Shown here in pieces: positions 45,864 through 55,505 of a DNA stretch of 64,000 nt (positions are counted from its first letter, which is position 1; each line of letters opens with the position of its first letter). The notes beneath the pieces were generated by a model. That model saw only the letters and a program-made list of their open reading frames with translations. It ran no database searches and was not told the DNA's origin. This stretch comes from Halohasta litorea (lineage in GTDB: Archaea > Halobacteriota > Halobacteria > Halobacteriales > Haloferacaceae): contig NZ_JANHDJ010000001.1 in NCBI RefSeq assembly GCF_024494645.1, forward strand, positions 434,001 to 498,000, in the 5' to 3' direction. Both the position numbers and the translations under genes were made by a program.

Positions 45864-46541
45864 CTACAGCCGCCGGGAGTCGACGACTGCTATCGACGGG
45901 CCGGTTTCGATCTCGACTGTGAGCGCCGACCCCCCCGTGGCGACCTGCTCGGTGTCGGCGAACACCGAAACTGCGGTCTCGCGTTCGACGCTCACCGACA
46001 GCGGCGGCTCGACGACCCACGCGTCGGCGATCGTGGCGAACGGTGCGATGGGGACGACCGCGAGGCCGGTGCCGAACCCGAGCTGTGGCCCACCCGCCGC
46101 GCGGTTGTAACCGTGGCTCCCCAGCGGGCTGGCGACGACGACACCGTCCGCACGGAACGCCGCGTGCTGGCGACCGTCCACAGATACGGCGTACTCGGAG
46201 ATCCGGGCCGGTTCGCTGGTGACTAGTGTCGTGTCGAAGGCCGCCGTCGACTGCGTCCCGTCGGCCGAGACGACCAGCGGGTGAGCCTCGACGGTCGGCA
46301 CTGATCGGTCGGTCAGCGACGCGAGCAGCTCCGGGAGTACCTCGCGGGACGGGCTCCACGCCGCATCGAGGCCGACCGGTACCACCGGTCGCTGCTCGCT
46401 GCGTGCGGCGGCCGCCGAGAGCGGCTCCTCGCCGACGGTAATTACGAGCGTTGGGTCCTCATCGTCGGCACACACGATGTCGACGACCGAGCCGAGGCGC
46501 TCTCGAAGCCCTTGGTCGCCGCCGCTGAGCGTAACGCGCAT
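45864..46541 (-). CDS. Degenerate NAD kinase-like protein
   Basis: About 225 residues. The C-terminal two thirds follow the NAD kinase fold: FDTTLVTSEPARISEYAVSV, then FRADGVVVASPLGSHGYNRA, matching the TPTGSSAY block of the true kinase at 6002. The catalytic GGDGT is replaced by VGEEP (about 46422-46436), so kinase activity is doubtful. Start at ATG 46541, with a GTG two codons upstream as alternative. It may bind a dinucleotide or regulate the true enzyme. It lies in the respiratory locus, between two membrane protein genes on the same strand. Confidence 0.75.
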   Translation of the reverse strand: MRVTLSGGDQGLRERLGSVVDIVCADDEDPTLVITVGEEPLSAAAARSEQRPVVPVGLDAAWSPSREVLPELLASLTDRSVPTVEAHPLVVSADGTQSTAAFDTTLVTSEPARISEYAVSVDGRQHAAFRADGVVVASPLGSHGYNRAAGGPQLGFGTGLAVVPIAPFATIADAWVVEPPLSVSVERETAVSVFADTEQVATGGSALTVEIETGPSIAVVDSRRL

Positions 46542-46630
46542 TCTCACTCCTCCGCCTTGCTCCGGTTAGTCACAGGCTACCTTTCGGTACTGATGAATAA
46601 AAACCTCCTGAGAGCACTGTCGAGAACTCA

Positions 46631-47309: not shown

Positions 47310-48365
47310 TTACTGGCGGTCGATAACACCCGTCACAGCTGCGGTCTCGTAGGCGGCATCGAGACTGACGCCGTTGCCGAGGATCGTATACCGGTCTCTG
47401 ATCTCGTGGGCGGTCGTCAACGCCTCCAGGAGATCGTCGTCACTGATGCCGATTTCGGCGGCGGTGGTGGGTGCGTCGATGCTCTTGAGCGCGTCCCGAA
47501 TCGCGCGCCACTGGCCGCCGTCGCCGTTGTGGAGGTACTCGGTGATGATCGAGGCGACGCCGACCTGATGGCCGTGGAGTGCTTGACCGGGGGCGATCCG
47601 ATCCAACTGGTGGGAGATGAGGTGTTCGGCCCCCGAGGCCGGACGCGAGGAGCCCGCGATCGACATCGCCACGCCGGAGGAGACCAGCGCCTTGACGACG
47701 ATCCAGGCGGACTCTTCGAGGTTGGGTTTGATCGAGTCGGCGTTGTCGACCAGCATCTCGGCGGTCATCTCCGAAAGCGCCCCGGCGTACTCGGAGTACT
47801 CGACGTTTTTCAGGCGCTTGGCCAGTCGCCAGTCCTGGACGGCGGTGTAGTTCGAGATGATATCGGCACAGCCCGCGGTCGTCAGCTCCCAGGGGGCTTT
47901 GGCCATGATCTCGGTGTCGGCGACGACCGCCAGCGGCGGATCGGCAGCGACGCTGTGGCGGCTGTCGCCCTCGGGGATCGACGACCGACCGGAGACGATG
48001 CCGTCGTGGCTGGCGGCAGTCGGCAAGGAAACGAGCCCGCAGTTGATCTCGTCGGCGGCCATCTTGGCGATATCGATCGGTTTGCCGCCGCCGAGACCGA
48101 TGAGGTAGTCGGCCGCCTGGGCTTGGGCGGTCTCGATGACCCGTTCGATCGACTCGAAACTCGCCTCCTCGACGATGATCGTCGCCGATTCGGGGACCTG
48201 GGCGCGAACCAGGCCGCCCGCCAGCTCGTTGGGGGTCGGACTCGTGATGATCAGCGGCTCGCCGGTGAGATGGAGGTCGGAGATCGTCTCCCCGAGCTCG
48301 TCGACCACGCCGTGGCCGACGACGACGTTGCGGGGGAGTTTGATCCACGTCGACTTGTCGAACAT
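47310..48365 (-). CDS. egsA: sn-Glycerol-1-phosphate dehydrogenase
   Basis: 351 residues. It reduces dihydroxyacetone phosphate to sn-glycerol-1-phosphate, which sets the stereochemistry of archaeal lipids. Features: N-terminal LPRNVVVGHGVVDELG, cofactor motif GLGGGKPIDIAK, and the zinc ligands in AEHLISHQLD and GHQVGVAS, with SHDGIVSGRSS between. Complete and typical. It precedes the DUF420 gene by 55 nt on the same strand. Confidence 0.95.
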   Translation of the reverse strand: MFDKSTWIKLPRNVVVGHGVVDELGETISDLHLTGEPLIITSPTPNELAGGLVRAQVPESATIIVEEASFESIERVIETAQAQAADYLIGLGGGKPIDIAKMAADEINCGLVSLPTAASHDGIVSGRSSIPEGDSRHSVAADPPLAVVADTEIMAKAPWELTTAGCADIISNYTAVQDWRLAKRLKNVEYSEYAGALSEMTAEMLVDNADSIKPNLEESAWIVVKALVSSGVAMSIAGSSRPASGAEHLISHQLDRIAPGQALHGHQVGVASIITEYLHNGDGGQWRAIRDALKSIDAPTTAAEIGISDDDLLEALTTAHEIRDRYTILGNGVSLDAAYETAAVTGVIDRQ

Positions 48366-48455
48366 GGTCGCCCCAACGGGGGCCGCCCGTGAAACTGTTT
48401 GTGTCTCCGCCGCCCATGTGCCACCGTAGTCGCCAACTACTGCCCCGATGTCGCC

Positions 48456-49130
48456 TTAGACAGTCTCTTCGAGGGCCGGTTCGACCCGGATCGAGCGGGC
48501 GACCGATTCGGGGAGGCTCTGCTCGCGGCCCTCAGGTGTTCGGACGGTCATCATCCCGAAGGGAGCGATATCGTCGACGACGAGTTCGGTCCCCGGGGTG
48601 ATGCCCGCGTCTTCGAGATACGCGAGTTCCTCGTCGTTGCGGTCGGAAACGCGGGTGACGACGACGTGGTCGTCCTCGGCGAACTCGCTGAGGGCAACCG
48701 ATTCGTCCTCGCCGAGCGGTTCGAGATCTGCATCCGGGATCGGATCGCCGTGGGGGTCTACAGTCGGATAGTCGAGTGCTTCGGCGACCCGGCGCTCGAA
48801 CTCCTCGGAGATGTGGTGTTCGAGCCGGTCAGCCTCCTCGTGGACCTCGCTCCAGGAGTAGTCGAGCTGTTCGGTCAGATAGGTCTCCAACAGCCGGTGG
48901 TGACGGATCACTTCGAGGGCGACGGTCTCTCCCTCCGGTGTGAGCTCGACGCCCTTGTATTTCTCGCGGTCGACCAACGCGTGGTCTTCGAGCTTGCCGA
49001 CCATGCTGGTGACCGTCGGCGGTGTCTTGTCCAGGTACTCCGCGATCGCCGACGTCGAGACGGGCGGATCGCCCTCGGCCTGAAGCACGTAGATCGCCTT
49101 CAGGTAGTCCTCCATCACGTCGCTGAACAT
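48456..49130 (-). CDS. DtxR/MntR-family metal-dependent repressor
   Basis: 224 residues with three domains: winged helix (1-62, with STSAIAEYLDKTPPTVTSMV), metal-binding/dimerisation (63-135, with the His/Glu-rich RLEHHISEEFERR), and a C-terminal FeoA/SH3-like domain (about 150-215). This is the full-length IdeR/SirR architecture that represses iron or manganese uptake genes when metal is bound. Which metal is sensed cannot be read. It follows the threonine-synthase-like gene by 47 nt on the same strand. Confidence 0.9.
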   Translation of the reverse strand: MFSDVMEDYLKAIYVLQAEGDPPVSTSAIAEYLDKTPPTVTSMVGKLEDHALVDREKYKGVELTPEGETVALEVIRHHRLLETYLTEQLDYSWSEVHEEADRLEHHISEEFERRVAEALDYPTVDPHGDPIPDADLEPLGEDESVALSEFAEDDHVVVTRVSDRNDEELAYLEDAGITPGTELVVDDIAPFGMMTVRTPEGREQSLPESVARSIRVEPALEETV

Positions 49131-49177: not shown

Positions 49178-50368
49178 TCAGACGCCCTGTCCCATCAGGT
49201 GGCTCCGCAGCACATCGGGCGTTTTGACCGCCGATTCGGTGTTGAGCAGGACGACGGTTTCGTCGCCCGAAAACTGATCGGCTTCCTGCCAGTTCCATGC
49301 CCCCGCGGCGGCCGCCCCGCCCGCCGCGCCCATCTCGATGACTTCGTGTTGGGCGATCGCTGTCGCCGATTCGAGGCTGTCGCTGTCGTCGACGGTCACC
49401 GCCGCGCCGTCGAGTCGGCGGAGGGCGTCGACTGCTTCGGCTCCGCCAGCCGGATCTGTCACCTCCAGTTCCCCGATAATCGTATCCGGATGGGCCCAGG
49501 GCTCGGGCTCGTCGAGGCCACGGTCGAAGGCCGCGGCGATCGGTCCACAGCTGGTCGGCTGGACCGCGACGATCGTCGGGGTCTCCTCGGTCGCCCCGAT
49601 CTCGGTTAGCTCCTCGAACCCCTTGGCGATCCCGGCGACGAGTTCGCCCGTGCTCGTCGGGATGAACACCACGTCGGGCAACTCATCGAGATCGGCGTAC
49701 AGCTCGAAGGCGACCGTCTTGGCTCCCTCGTGGCGGTACGGGGTGGTGAACTCCTGCAGCGAGTAGTAGTCGGTGGCTAACTGGTCGTCGACCGCGCTGG
49801 CGGCGTCGGCGTACCGGCCGCCGACCACCCGCATCTGGCCGCCGTGGACGTTGATCATCGCCTTGTTCGAAAACGCCGACCGCGAGGGGACGAAGGCGTA
49901 CGAGCGGAGGCCGAGTCGGCCGACGTAGGCCGCCGCCGACTGCCCGCTGTTGCCGGTCGAGGCGAGCGCCAGCGGTTCGAGCGAGTCGGGATCGTCGTGA
50001 TCCGACAGCGCGGTCACCGCGAGGCTCATCCCCCGGTCGTAGACCGTACCGGTCGGATTTCTCCCCTCGTCTTTGATATAGACTTCGCCGACACCGAGTT
50101 CGTCGACCAGCCGGTCGGCCGCAACGAGCGGGGTCTCCCCTTCGGCGGCCGTGACCGCACTGTCGCGCCCAAACGGCAGCAGCGCGTCGAACCGCCACTG
50201 TCCGGTTGTCGTTCCCCCATCGAAGAGGTCCGCCGGTGTGACCGAATCGTACTCGTAGGTCGGCTCCAGGACCCCCTCACAGTCGGGGCACCGCTGGTCG
50301 ACATCGACGGTAAAATTCGACCCACAATCGGTGCAGACGAGTCCAGAAAACGCCGGAGTCAGCTCCAT
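49178..50368 (-). CDS. Threonine synthase-like protein lacking the PLP lysine
   Basis: 396 residues from ATG 50368, where the N-terminal zinc ribbon (LVCTDCGSNF, then CPDCEG) begins the family fold. The rest follows fold-type II PLP enzymes: VYIKDEGRNPTG, STGNSGQSAAAYVGRLG for phosphate binding, and a C-terminal GAAGGAAAAGAW. The position that should hold the Schiff-base lysine (NPTGSFKDRG in threonine synthase) reads NPTGTVYDRG, with tyrosine encoded at 50039-50041. It is therefore either inactive in PLP chemistry or has another role. The symbol thrC is withheld for this reason. A palindromic operator-like site lies in the divergent promoter. Confidence 0.88.
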   Translation of the reverse strand: MELTPAFSGLVCTDCGSNFTVDVDQRCPDCEGVLEPTYEYDSVTPADLFDGGTTTGQWRFDALLPFGRDSAVTAAEGETPLVAADRLVDELGVGEVYIKDEGRNPTGTVYDRGMSLAVTALSDHDDPDSLEPLALASTGNSGQSAAAYVGRLGLRSYAFVPSRSAFSNKAMINVHGGQMRVVGGRYADAASAVDDQLATDYYSLQEFTTPYRHEGAKTVAFELYADLDELPDVVFIPTSTGELVAGIAKGFEELTEIGATEETPTIVAVQPTSCGPIAAAFDRGLDEPEPWAHPDTIIGELEVTDPAGGAEAVDALRRLDGAAVTVDDSDSLESATAIAQHEVIEMGAAGGAAAAGAWNWQEADQFSGDETVVLLNTESAVKTPDVLRSHLMGQGV

Positions 50369-54633: not shown

Positions 54634-54689
54634 ACCGACCGCTCGGAAGGCAGTGCCTAAAATGCCACCGTCGGCGCGTGCCCGCGGGG

Positions 54690-54697
54690 CTTTTAAT
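54690..54697 (+). promoter_or_regulatory. TATA box of HTH gene
   Basis: CTTTTAAT centred near 54693 lies 27 nt before the ATG at 54720, predicting a leaderless transcript. Confidence 0.5.
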
Positions 54698-54719
54698 GCC
54701 CCCGCACGGACAAGGGGAT

Positions 54720-55505
54720 ATGAGCGATGCGCTGGCCGACAAGCGAACCGCCACCCGATTTCGGGTGCTCGTCGAGATCGCCGACCGACAGCCCGCGGTG
54801 AGCCAAGGCGAGATCGCCGACGCGGTCGGCGTCACCAGTCAGGCGGTCAGTGAGTACATCCGCGAGTTGGTCGACGACGACCTCGTGACCAAGGAGGGTC
54901 GATCGCGCTACTCCGTGACCAAGGAGGGCGTCGACTGGCTGTTCCAGGAGGCCAAATCCCTCCAGCGGTTCGCCGACCACGTCACCGGCGACGTGCTGGG
55001 CACCGTCCAGGAGGACACCGCCATCGCAACCGCCCAGATCGAGGCGGGCCAAGCGGTCACCATCTCGGTCCAGGACGGGCTGCTCCACGCAACGCCGGGA
55101 GAATCCGGCCCTGCGACCGGCGTGGCGACGACCGACGCCGACGAAGGAACCGACGTGAGTGTGACCTCCTTCGAGGGTGTCATCGATATGACTGCCGGGA
55201 CGGTCACTGTCATCCAGATTCCGCCAGCCAGGGATGGTGGCAGTCGAGCCGTCGACACCGACCAACTCGCCGATAGCTGCGCAACTGCGGACCTCGTCGT
55301 CGCGGCGGGCGTCGAGGCCGTCGTCTCGCTTCGGCAGGCCGACCGCGAACCGGCGGTAACAGTCGCGGCTGGCGAGGTCGCTGCCGCGGCCGCCGCCGTT
55401 GGACAACGCGTTGTCGTCGTCGCTTCGACCGATACCATGGGCCGGGTGACCGACGCGCTCCGCGACGGCAACGTCTCCTACGAAGTGACGAACCCGGTAG
55501 CCTGA
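54720..55505 (+). CDS. MarR-like HTH protein with C-terminal sensor-type domain
   Basis: 261 residues from ATG 54720. Residues ~10-75 form a winged helix (SQGEIADAVGVTSQAVSEYI, then a wing with SRYSVTKEGVDWL). The rest is an alpha/beta domain rich in Ala and Val (two parts near 55030-55230 and 55240-55490) that I recall as DUF7839 in haloarchaea. A role as a ligand-responsive regulator is likely; the ligand and targets are unknown. Confidence 0.82.
   Translation: MSDALADKRTATRFRVLVEIADRQPAVSQGEIADAVGVTSQAVSEYIRELVDDDLVTKEGRSRYSVTKEGVDWLFQEAKSLQRFADHVTGDVLGTVQEDTAIATAQIEAGQAVTISVQDGLLHATPGESGPATGVATTDADEGTDVSVTSFEGVIDMTAGTVTVIQIPPARDGGSRAVDTDQLADSCATADLVVAAGVEAVVSLRQADREPAVTVAAGEVAAAAAAVGQRVVVVASTDTMGRVTDALRDGNVSYEVTNPVA

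Follow-up and report, generated by a model that had tools for sequence, protein, structure and literature searches.

Threonine synthase (ThrC; TIGR00260 and PRK08197; PDB 6nmx, 2zsj, 1uim, and 2d1f) is the described system closest to P0001, a threonine-synthase-like protein encoded in the 64,000-nucleotide stretch of Halohasta litorea DNA analyzed here (the window). The whole fold, as predicted for P0001, and the order of motifs are the same in both, and the N-terminal zinc ribbon of P0001 is as in PRK08197-type threonine synthases. In contrast to ThrC, P0001 has a replacement of the lysine (Lys) that forms the Schiff base with PLP and an altered phosphate loop, and it carries E206-F207 where ThrC has the substrate-site Asn-Ser before the conserved P-Y/F-R.

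Haloarchaea also possess Lys-bearing orthologues of the PRK08197 type, which are about 50% identical to P0001. Unlike P0001, these proteins have K110, A138, K216, and G240, and one of them (L053 of Halorarius halobius) exceeds the PRK08197 cut-off that P0001 does not reach (386 vs. 303). In several families, they share the neighborhood of the P0001 family, with a metallophosphoesterase gene upstream and a LysE gene downstream. Cells of H. volcanii with a transposon insertion in HVO_2969 (thrC3) depend on supplied Gly, Ser, and Thr (PMC4300041); thus, the other annotated thrC copies of this species do not cover the function of HVO_2969. Pseudoenzymes in general are already known, and we consider P0001 to belong, probably, to a haloarchaeal pseudoenzyme family with several origins that no longer carries out Schiff-base chemistry with PLP and is retained for a binding or regulatory function. 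A literature search, which covered open-access papers and is therefore weak evidence, found no paper on P0001 or on Lys-less threonine synthases.

Gene and family assignment

The reading frame of P0001 comprised 396 amino acids followed by a TGA stop, with no internal stops (Table 1). The start at 50368 (MELTPAFSGL) was preferred over a longer ORF from 50458 because it matches the conserved start of the orthologues. P0001 matched Pfam PALP (PF00291) at 213.6 bits (cut-off 35), as expected of a fold-type II superfamily sequence. The best NCBIfam model was PRK08197 ‘threonine synthase’ (237 bits, below the cut-off of 303), the thrC model TIGR00260 gave 111.4 bits (below the cut-off of 167.1), and P0001 scored below the curated cut-off of every threonine synthase model. 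The nearest solved chains were threonine synthases, with Tyr110 of P0001 aligned to the Lys of their NPTGSFKDRG motif. These matches and the four Cys residues bear out the earlier note, which had described a threonine-synthase-like protein with a zinc ribbon and Tyr in place of the PLP Lys.

Table 1. Features of P0001 and its downstream neighbors in the window
Feature	Position	Strand	Remark
P0001, Lys-less threonine-synthase-like CDS, 396 aa	49178–50368	−	TGA stop at 49178–49180
Tyr110 codon (TAC), Schiff-base Lys position	50039–50041	−	Alignment
N104-G113 (NPTGTVYDRG), PLP-Lys motif with Lys replaced	50030–50059	−	Orthologue alignment
Zinc-ribbon-like Cys pattern, C12-x2-C15...C27-x2-C30	50279–50335	−	Sequence and clade conservation
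S137-T138-G139-N140, fold-type II Asn loop	49949–49960	−	Thr138 is Ala in Lys-bearing relatives
R212-K217	49718–49735	−	Arg212 invariant; Lys216 in 27/28 Lys-bearing and 0 Lys-less rows
P237-L243 (PTSTGEL), altered PLP phosphate loop	49640–49660	−	Glu242 in 68/68 clade members
DtxR/SirR-type metal-dependent repressor with FeoA domain	48456–49130	−	47 bases past the P0001 stop
Iron-ADH-family protein, probably glycerol-1-phosphate dehydrogenase	47310–48365	−	Next gene downstream

The superfamily Lys for the PLP Schiff base was absent from P0001 (Tyr110), and the glycine-rich phosphate cup (GGGVG, or GNAGN in canonical ThrC) was replaced by STGEL. Because neither of the two defining features tested was found, we did not file P0001 as a threonine synthase. 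The Asn that contacts O3′ of PLP and the Thr/Ser at the ring nitrogen were both present (N140 and T377, aligned to 2zsj). The earlier claim that the frame and the other motifs are intact therefore stands for the frame and for the four Cys of P0001 and fails for the phosphate loop. The combination that marks a pseudoenzyme, namely a lost catalytic residue, a retained fold, and a gene under selection, was found in P0001.

Seven PALP genes above the cut-off were present in the same genome. A second, canonical thrC, which the earlier note had proposed to look for, was found (L003; TIGR00260, 292 bits against a cut-off of 167), with NPTGSFKDRG and PVGNAGN motifs; threonine synthesis thus has no need of P0001. 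Separately, we observed that the Lys-bearing PRK08197-type proteins (L053:8001–9188 and others) lack the NPFRLEGQKT and GNAGN signatures of canonical ThrC, carry a family-specific Lys216, and coexist with a canonical ThrC elsewhere in the genome. From these sequence features, their substrate may be other than O-phosphohomoserine, despite the name of the model.

Residue 110 and the cofactor site across orthologues

Homologues were present in 148/148 of the Haloferacaceae genomes sampled (cut-off 1e-40) and in all 242 of the 242 sampled haloarchaeal genomes (1e-30), at cut-offs that also admit paralogues and do not imply the Lys state. Plasmid-borne homologues were distant ones only, with at most ~36% identity. 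The Lys column was read in 123 family sequences, consisting of 68 from the Haloferacaceae clade and 55 from outside it. Lys was absent from all 68 clade members, in which the position was occupied by Leu (43), Tyr (11), Val (4), Ile (3), His (3), Phe (3), or Thr (1), while N104, T106, D111, R112, and G113 around it were invariant. Outside the clade, 27 rows were Lys-less (Thr, Val, Ala, Leu, Asp, Arg, or Gln) and 28 were Lys-bearing, and 40 further genera yielded 33 Lys-bearing and 7 Lys-less sequences (Thr, Glu, Arg, or Ala); these proportions do not represent natural frequencies because sequences outside the clade were selected for their similarity to the query. In other haloarchaeal families, some Lys-bearing and Lys-less orthologues occupy the same syntenic locus.

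The earlier note had raised the possibility that Tyr is a conserved residue of a subfamily. It proved to be a local state, one of seven replacements in the clade, fixed in Halohasta and Halonotius only and recurring in two distant members (L130 and L131). A sequencing error or a local mutation was rejected because Lys was absent from every clade member and Tyr recurs in Halonotius and in the three other members of the genus group that were sampled. A conserved Tyr acting as a new catalytic residue was likewise rejected, as Leu, Val, Ile, Phe, His, and Thr freely occur at position 110. Since Tyr is one of several replacements and Leu is the commonest, nothing points to Tyr-based chemistry, and the alignment indicates that constraint on the site was lifted and not replaced by a new requirement. 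The zinc ribbon also appears dispensable because Cys at C15/C27/C30 was lost in about 26/67 clade members; P0001 retains all four.

The loss of Lys was accompanied by further changes at the cofactor site. Gly240 lies in the loop that aligns with the phosphate cup for PLP; it was present in 28/28 Lys-bearing rows and missing from 94 of the 95 Lys-less rows. Lys216 occurred in all but one of the Lys-bearing rows and in none of the 95 Lys-less rows, and Ala138, found in 27/28 Lys-bearing rows, had been replaced in most members of each of the seven Lys-less lineages. The added genera followed the same pattern: all 33 Lys-bearing sequences had A138, K216, and GGG, and the seven Lys-less ones had lost A138 and K216 in every case and G240 in six. 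The phosphate loop reads GGGVG in Lys-bearing relatives vs. STGEL in P0001, and the Haloferacaceae clade has invariant loop residues of its own (T/S240, G241, and E242) together with another clade-specific new invariant, E300. Glu242 alone does not exclude PLP because Lys-bearing Chloroflexi relatives have Glu at that column. N140 was kept in 62/68 clade members and T377 in 49/68.

Young losses were compared over the 84 columns that are invariant in Lys-bearing rows. Natronorubrum had changed only K110, A141, G240, and G300, and Halococcus only K110, Y236, G240, and T377; most of these columns belong to the cofactor site by alignment. The Lys-bearing control lineages had changed 0–4 such columns and, with the exception of L080, none of those changed in the young losses. 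In an independent-pairs sign test of K110 with G240, K216, or A138, all informative pairs agreed, and the p value stays at 0.125 because only 4–5 informative pairs exist. The coupling of K110 with the cofactor-site residues is strong across lineages, with few independent pairs.

L080 itself (L080:8001–9173, Halomarina rubra; the same gene as L175) has kept Lys, but A138, K216, and some of the phosphate loop are gone, and a second, intact Lys-bearing copy (L161) is present in the same genome. By its sequence, L080 is a possible intermediate in enzyme loss.

Two explanations in which P0001 is still an enzyme were weighed against these patterns. In the first, PLP would form its Schiff base with another conserved Lys, for which K99 and K169 (both 68/68) and K217 and K382 (both about 97% of the clade) are candidates. 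The Lys-bearing orthologues, however, conserve all four to the same degree, and K99, K217, and K382 are also found in outgroup threonine synthases, in which the usual Lys is employed. No Lys column was gained in the Lys-less rows, and the phosphate cup changes together with the Lys. A substitute Schiff-base Lys is very unlikely because no new Lys column has appeared and the candidates are common to Lys-bearing rows.

In the second, P0001 would perform new chemistry, with PLP bound non-covalently or with a PLP-free reaction in the same pocket, and residue 110 would be a spectator or a side player. Pocket residues T106, D111, R112, N140, Q143, and R212 are conserved, E242 and E300 are new invariants of the clade, and in ColD, a fold-type I sugar dehydratase, His replaces the Lys. 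Against this, T377 was lost in 19/68 clade members, and no chemistry can rest on residue 110 because it is mostly Leu and is interchangeable with Val, Ile, Phe, Tyr, His, and Thr. We regard new chemistry as rather unlikely.

Repeated origin, selection, and predicted fold

Column 110 was masked for a quick tree of 129 rows, in which the Lys label needed 6 changes, at least 5 of which were forced by well-supported branches. A careful tree of 68 rows also gave 6 changes (6–6 over 5%–95% of bootstrap trees), and masking columns 109, 110, 138, 216, and 240 with the added genera included gave 5, all of them forced. A single Lys-less clade was rejected (p-AU 3.6e-5, 338 log units), for a grouping that was picked after the tree was seen. 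Three losses were nested within the Lys-bearing clade, in the Natronorubrum type, Halococcus, and Haloglomus. No mosaic genes were seen in windowed identities along the gene, and gene conversion between paralogues was rejected as an origin for the nested Lys-less genes, as their windowed identity tracks the Lys-bearing sister gene-wide.

Loss is the natural direction of change because the outgroups carry Lys, and the trees suggest that Lys was most likely lost several times independently in haloarchaea. The earlier note had held that orthologues with Lys would indicate a local mutation; such orthologues do exist in other families, but the local mutation did not hold up, as Lys appears to have been lost several times. 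The reverse history, with a Lys-less haloarchaeal ancestor and a regain of Lys, along with A138/K216, in the Lys-bearing clade, has the same small number of changes (5–6) under equal-cost parsimony. The Lys-bearing clade is also nested among Lys-less lineages, with A138/K216 derived within it, and the trees taken alone would be compatible with an early loss and one regain at its base. The outgroups, however, have Lys, a working PLP site is far harder to rebuild than to lose, and at least three nested losses in the Lys-bearing clade stand under both views. An ancestral Lys-less state is thus highly improbable.

Pairwise dN/dS values (NG86) were 0.08–0.26 for Lys-less pairs vs. 0.07–0.16 for Lys-bearing pairs, which indicates that the P0001 family is under purifying selection outside the cofactor site. 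With dN/dS of 0.08–0.26, a pseudogene was ruled out. A gene decaying toward loss and intact by chance would fit the repeated loss of catalytic residues and the zinc-ribbon Cys residues missing from about 26/67 clade members. It is at odds with the presence of homologues in every genome sampled at the cut-offs used, the freedom from stops, dN/dS well below 1 as in Lys-bearing relatives, and dozens of invariant columns in the clade, and we find it scarcely credible. The view of the earlier note that this is a maintained gene and could be a pseudoenzyme appears well supported by the clade-wide absence of Lys, purifying selection, and the canonical ThrC elsewhere in the genome.

The AlphaFold2 model of P0001 had a pLDDT of 94.6 and a pTM of 0.94, and that of the Lys-bearing L053 had a pLDDT of 94.0. 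The top Foldseek matches of P0001 were all threonine synthases (6nmx: E 1.3e-26, TM 0.76 by query and 0.86 by target). P0001 is thus predicted to have an intact threonine-synthase fold, in a model that partly mirrors the homologue alignment and is not proof of folding.

Neighborhood, proposed role, and relation to known systems

Neighbors on the same strand within 4.5 kb downstream were counted at 49 loci of the Haloferacaceae clade. DtxR was found at 35 loci, glycerol-1-phosphate dehydrogenase at 30, a LysE translocator at 29, and GDT1 at 22; LysE also lay downstream at 5/28 Lys-bearing and 11/28 other loci, and the metallophosphoesterase lay upstream in all three locus groups. Given these two neighbors shared across groups, Lys-bearing and Lys-less genes are, in at least some cases, orthologous by position. 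A conserved haloarchaeal block (47310–49130 in the window; loci L116–L155) comprises DtxR/SirR, the GDT1 divalent cation antiporter, LysE, and glycerol-1-phosphate dehydrogenase; LysE and GDT1 were absent from the block at the P0001 locus in the window. In H. volcanii, sirR is HVO_0819 (PMC11349517), and gene order suggests that the adjoining HVO_0818 may be the P0001 orthologue. A role tied to the neighboring LysE-type exporter or to the DtxR/GDT1 metal genes would be a guess, the neighborhood offering only leads and not proof of function.

Two other genes in the window were recorded. The protein encoded at 54678–55502 is a winged-helix protein with a C-terminal DUF7839, which recurs as a divergent upstream neighbor at both Lys-less and Lys-bearing loci. 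The one at 45864–46547 weakly matched an NAD-kinase C-terminal domain (49.5 bits) and may be a divergent NAD kinase.

In the pseudoenzyme reading that we prefer, the ancestor would have been a threonine-synthase-like PLP enzyme, and the P0001 clade would then have lost the Schiff-base Lys and the PLP phosphate cup. P0001 would most likely lack an internal aldimine and would therefore not perform ordinary PLP catalysis; PLP can still be held without Lys, either non-covalently or as an external aldimine. Selection, which appears to hold the fold and most other residues, would retain P0001 for a non-catalytic job, such as binding a small ligand, regulating a partner protein by binding to it, or both. 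T138-G139-N140 and Arg212 are kept in P0001, and from the alignment we take them to be the substrate side in threonine synthase, with T138-G-N140 as the amino-acid-carboxylate loop; their retention thus fits ligand binding. A more specific version, which we put forward tentatively, is that the non-catalytic job was already essential in the ancestral PLP enzyme. One haloarchaeal lineage after another might then have given up the cofactor site through a recurring combination of substitutions (loss of Lys110 and Gly240, Thr for Ala138, and mostly Ala for Lys216). An amino-acid enzyme would thereby have become a PLP-free sensor or partner protein, possibly tied to the adjoining LysE-type exporter.

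A fold-type II PLP family with repeated, independent loss of the Lys, the phosphate cup, and two active-site residues, and with strong selection on the remainder of the protein, would constitute a natural repeated experiment in the change from an enzyme to a binding protein. Haloarchaea that can be cultured and genetically manipulated carry Lys-less and Lys-bearing orthologues at similar loci, which makes the proposal directly testable. As for annotation, Lys-less genes probably carry the name threonine synthase, and they should not be counted as threonine synthases when pathways are reconstructed.

Among PLP enzymes of other folds, SPTLC1 (serine palmitoyltransferase) and antizyme inhibitor (ornithine decarboxylase) are pseudoenzymes of fold-types I and III without the cofactor Lys or cofactor binding. 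They are kept as structural or regulatory subunits, and they differ from P0001 in being eukaryotic, in having other folds, and in having known partners. The plant TSB-like protein is a fold-type II pseudoenzyme of tryptophan synthase beta that lost catalysis through changes of key residues and acts as an allosteric activator of TSA (PMC12727527). It provides a precedent for how P0001 may work, being of the same fold type and of a different fold-type II family. In the plant protein, two residues are changed and the partner is TSA, whereas in P0001 the Lys and the phosphate cup are lost.
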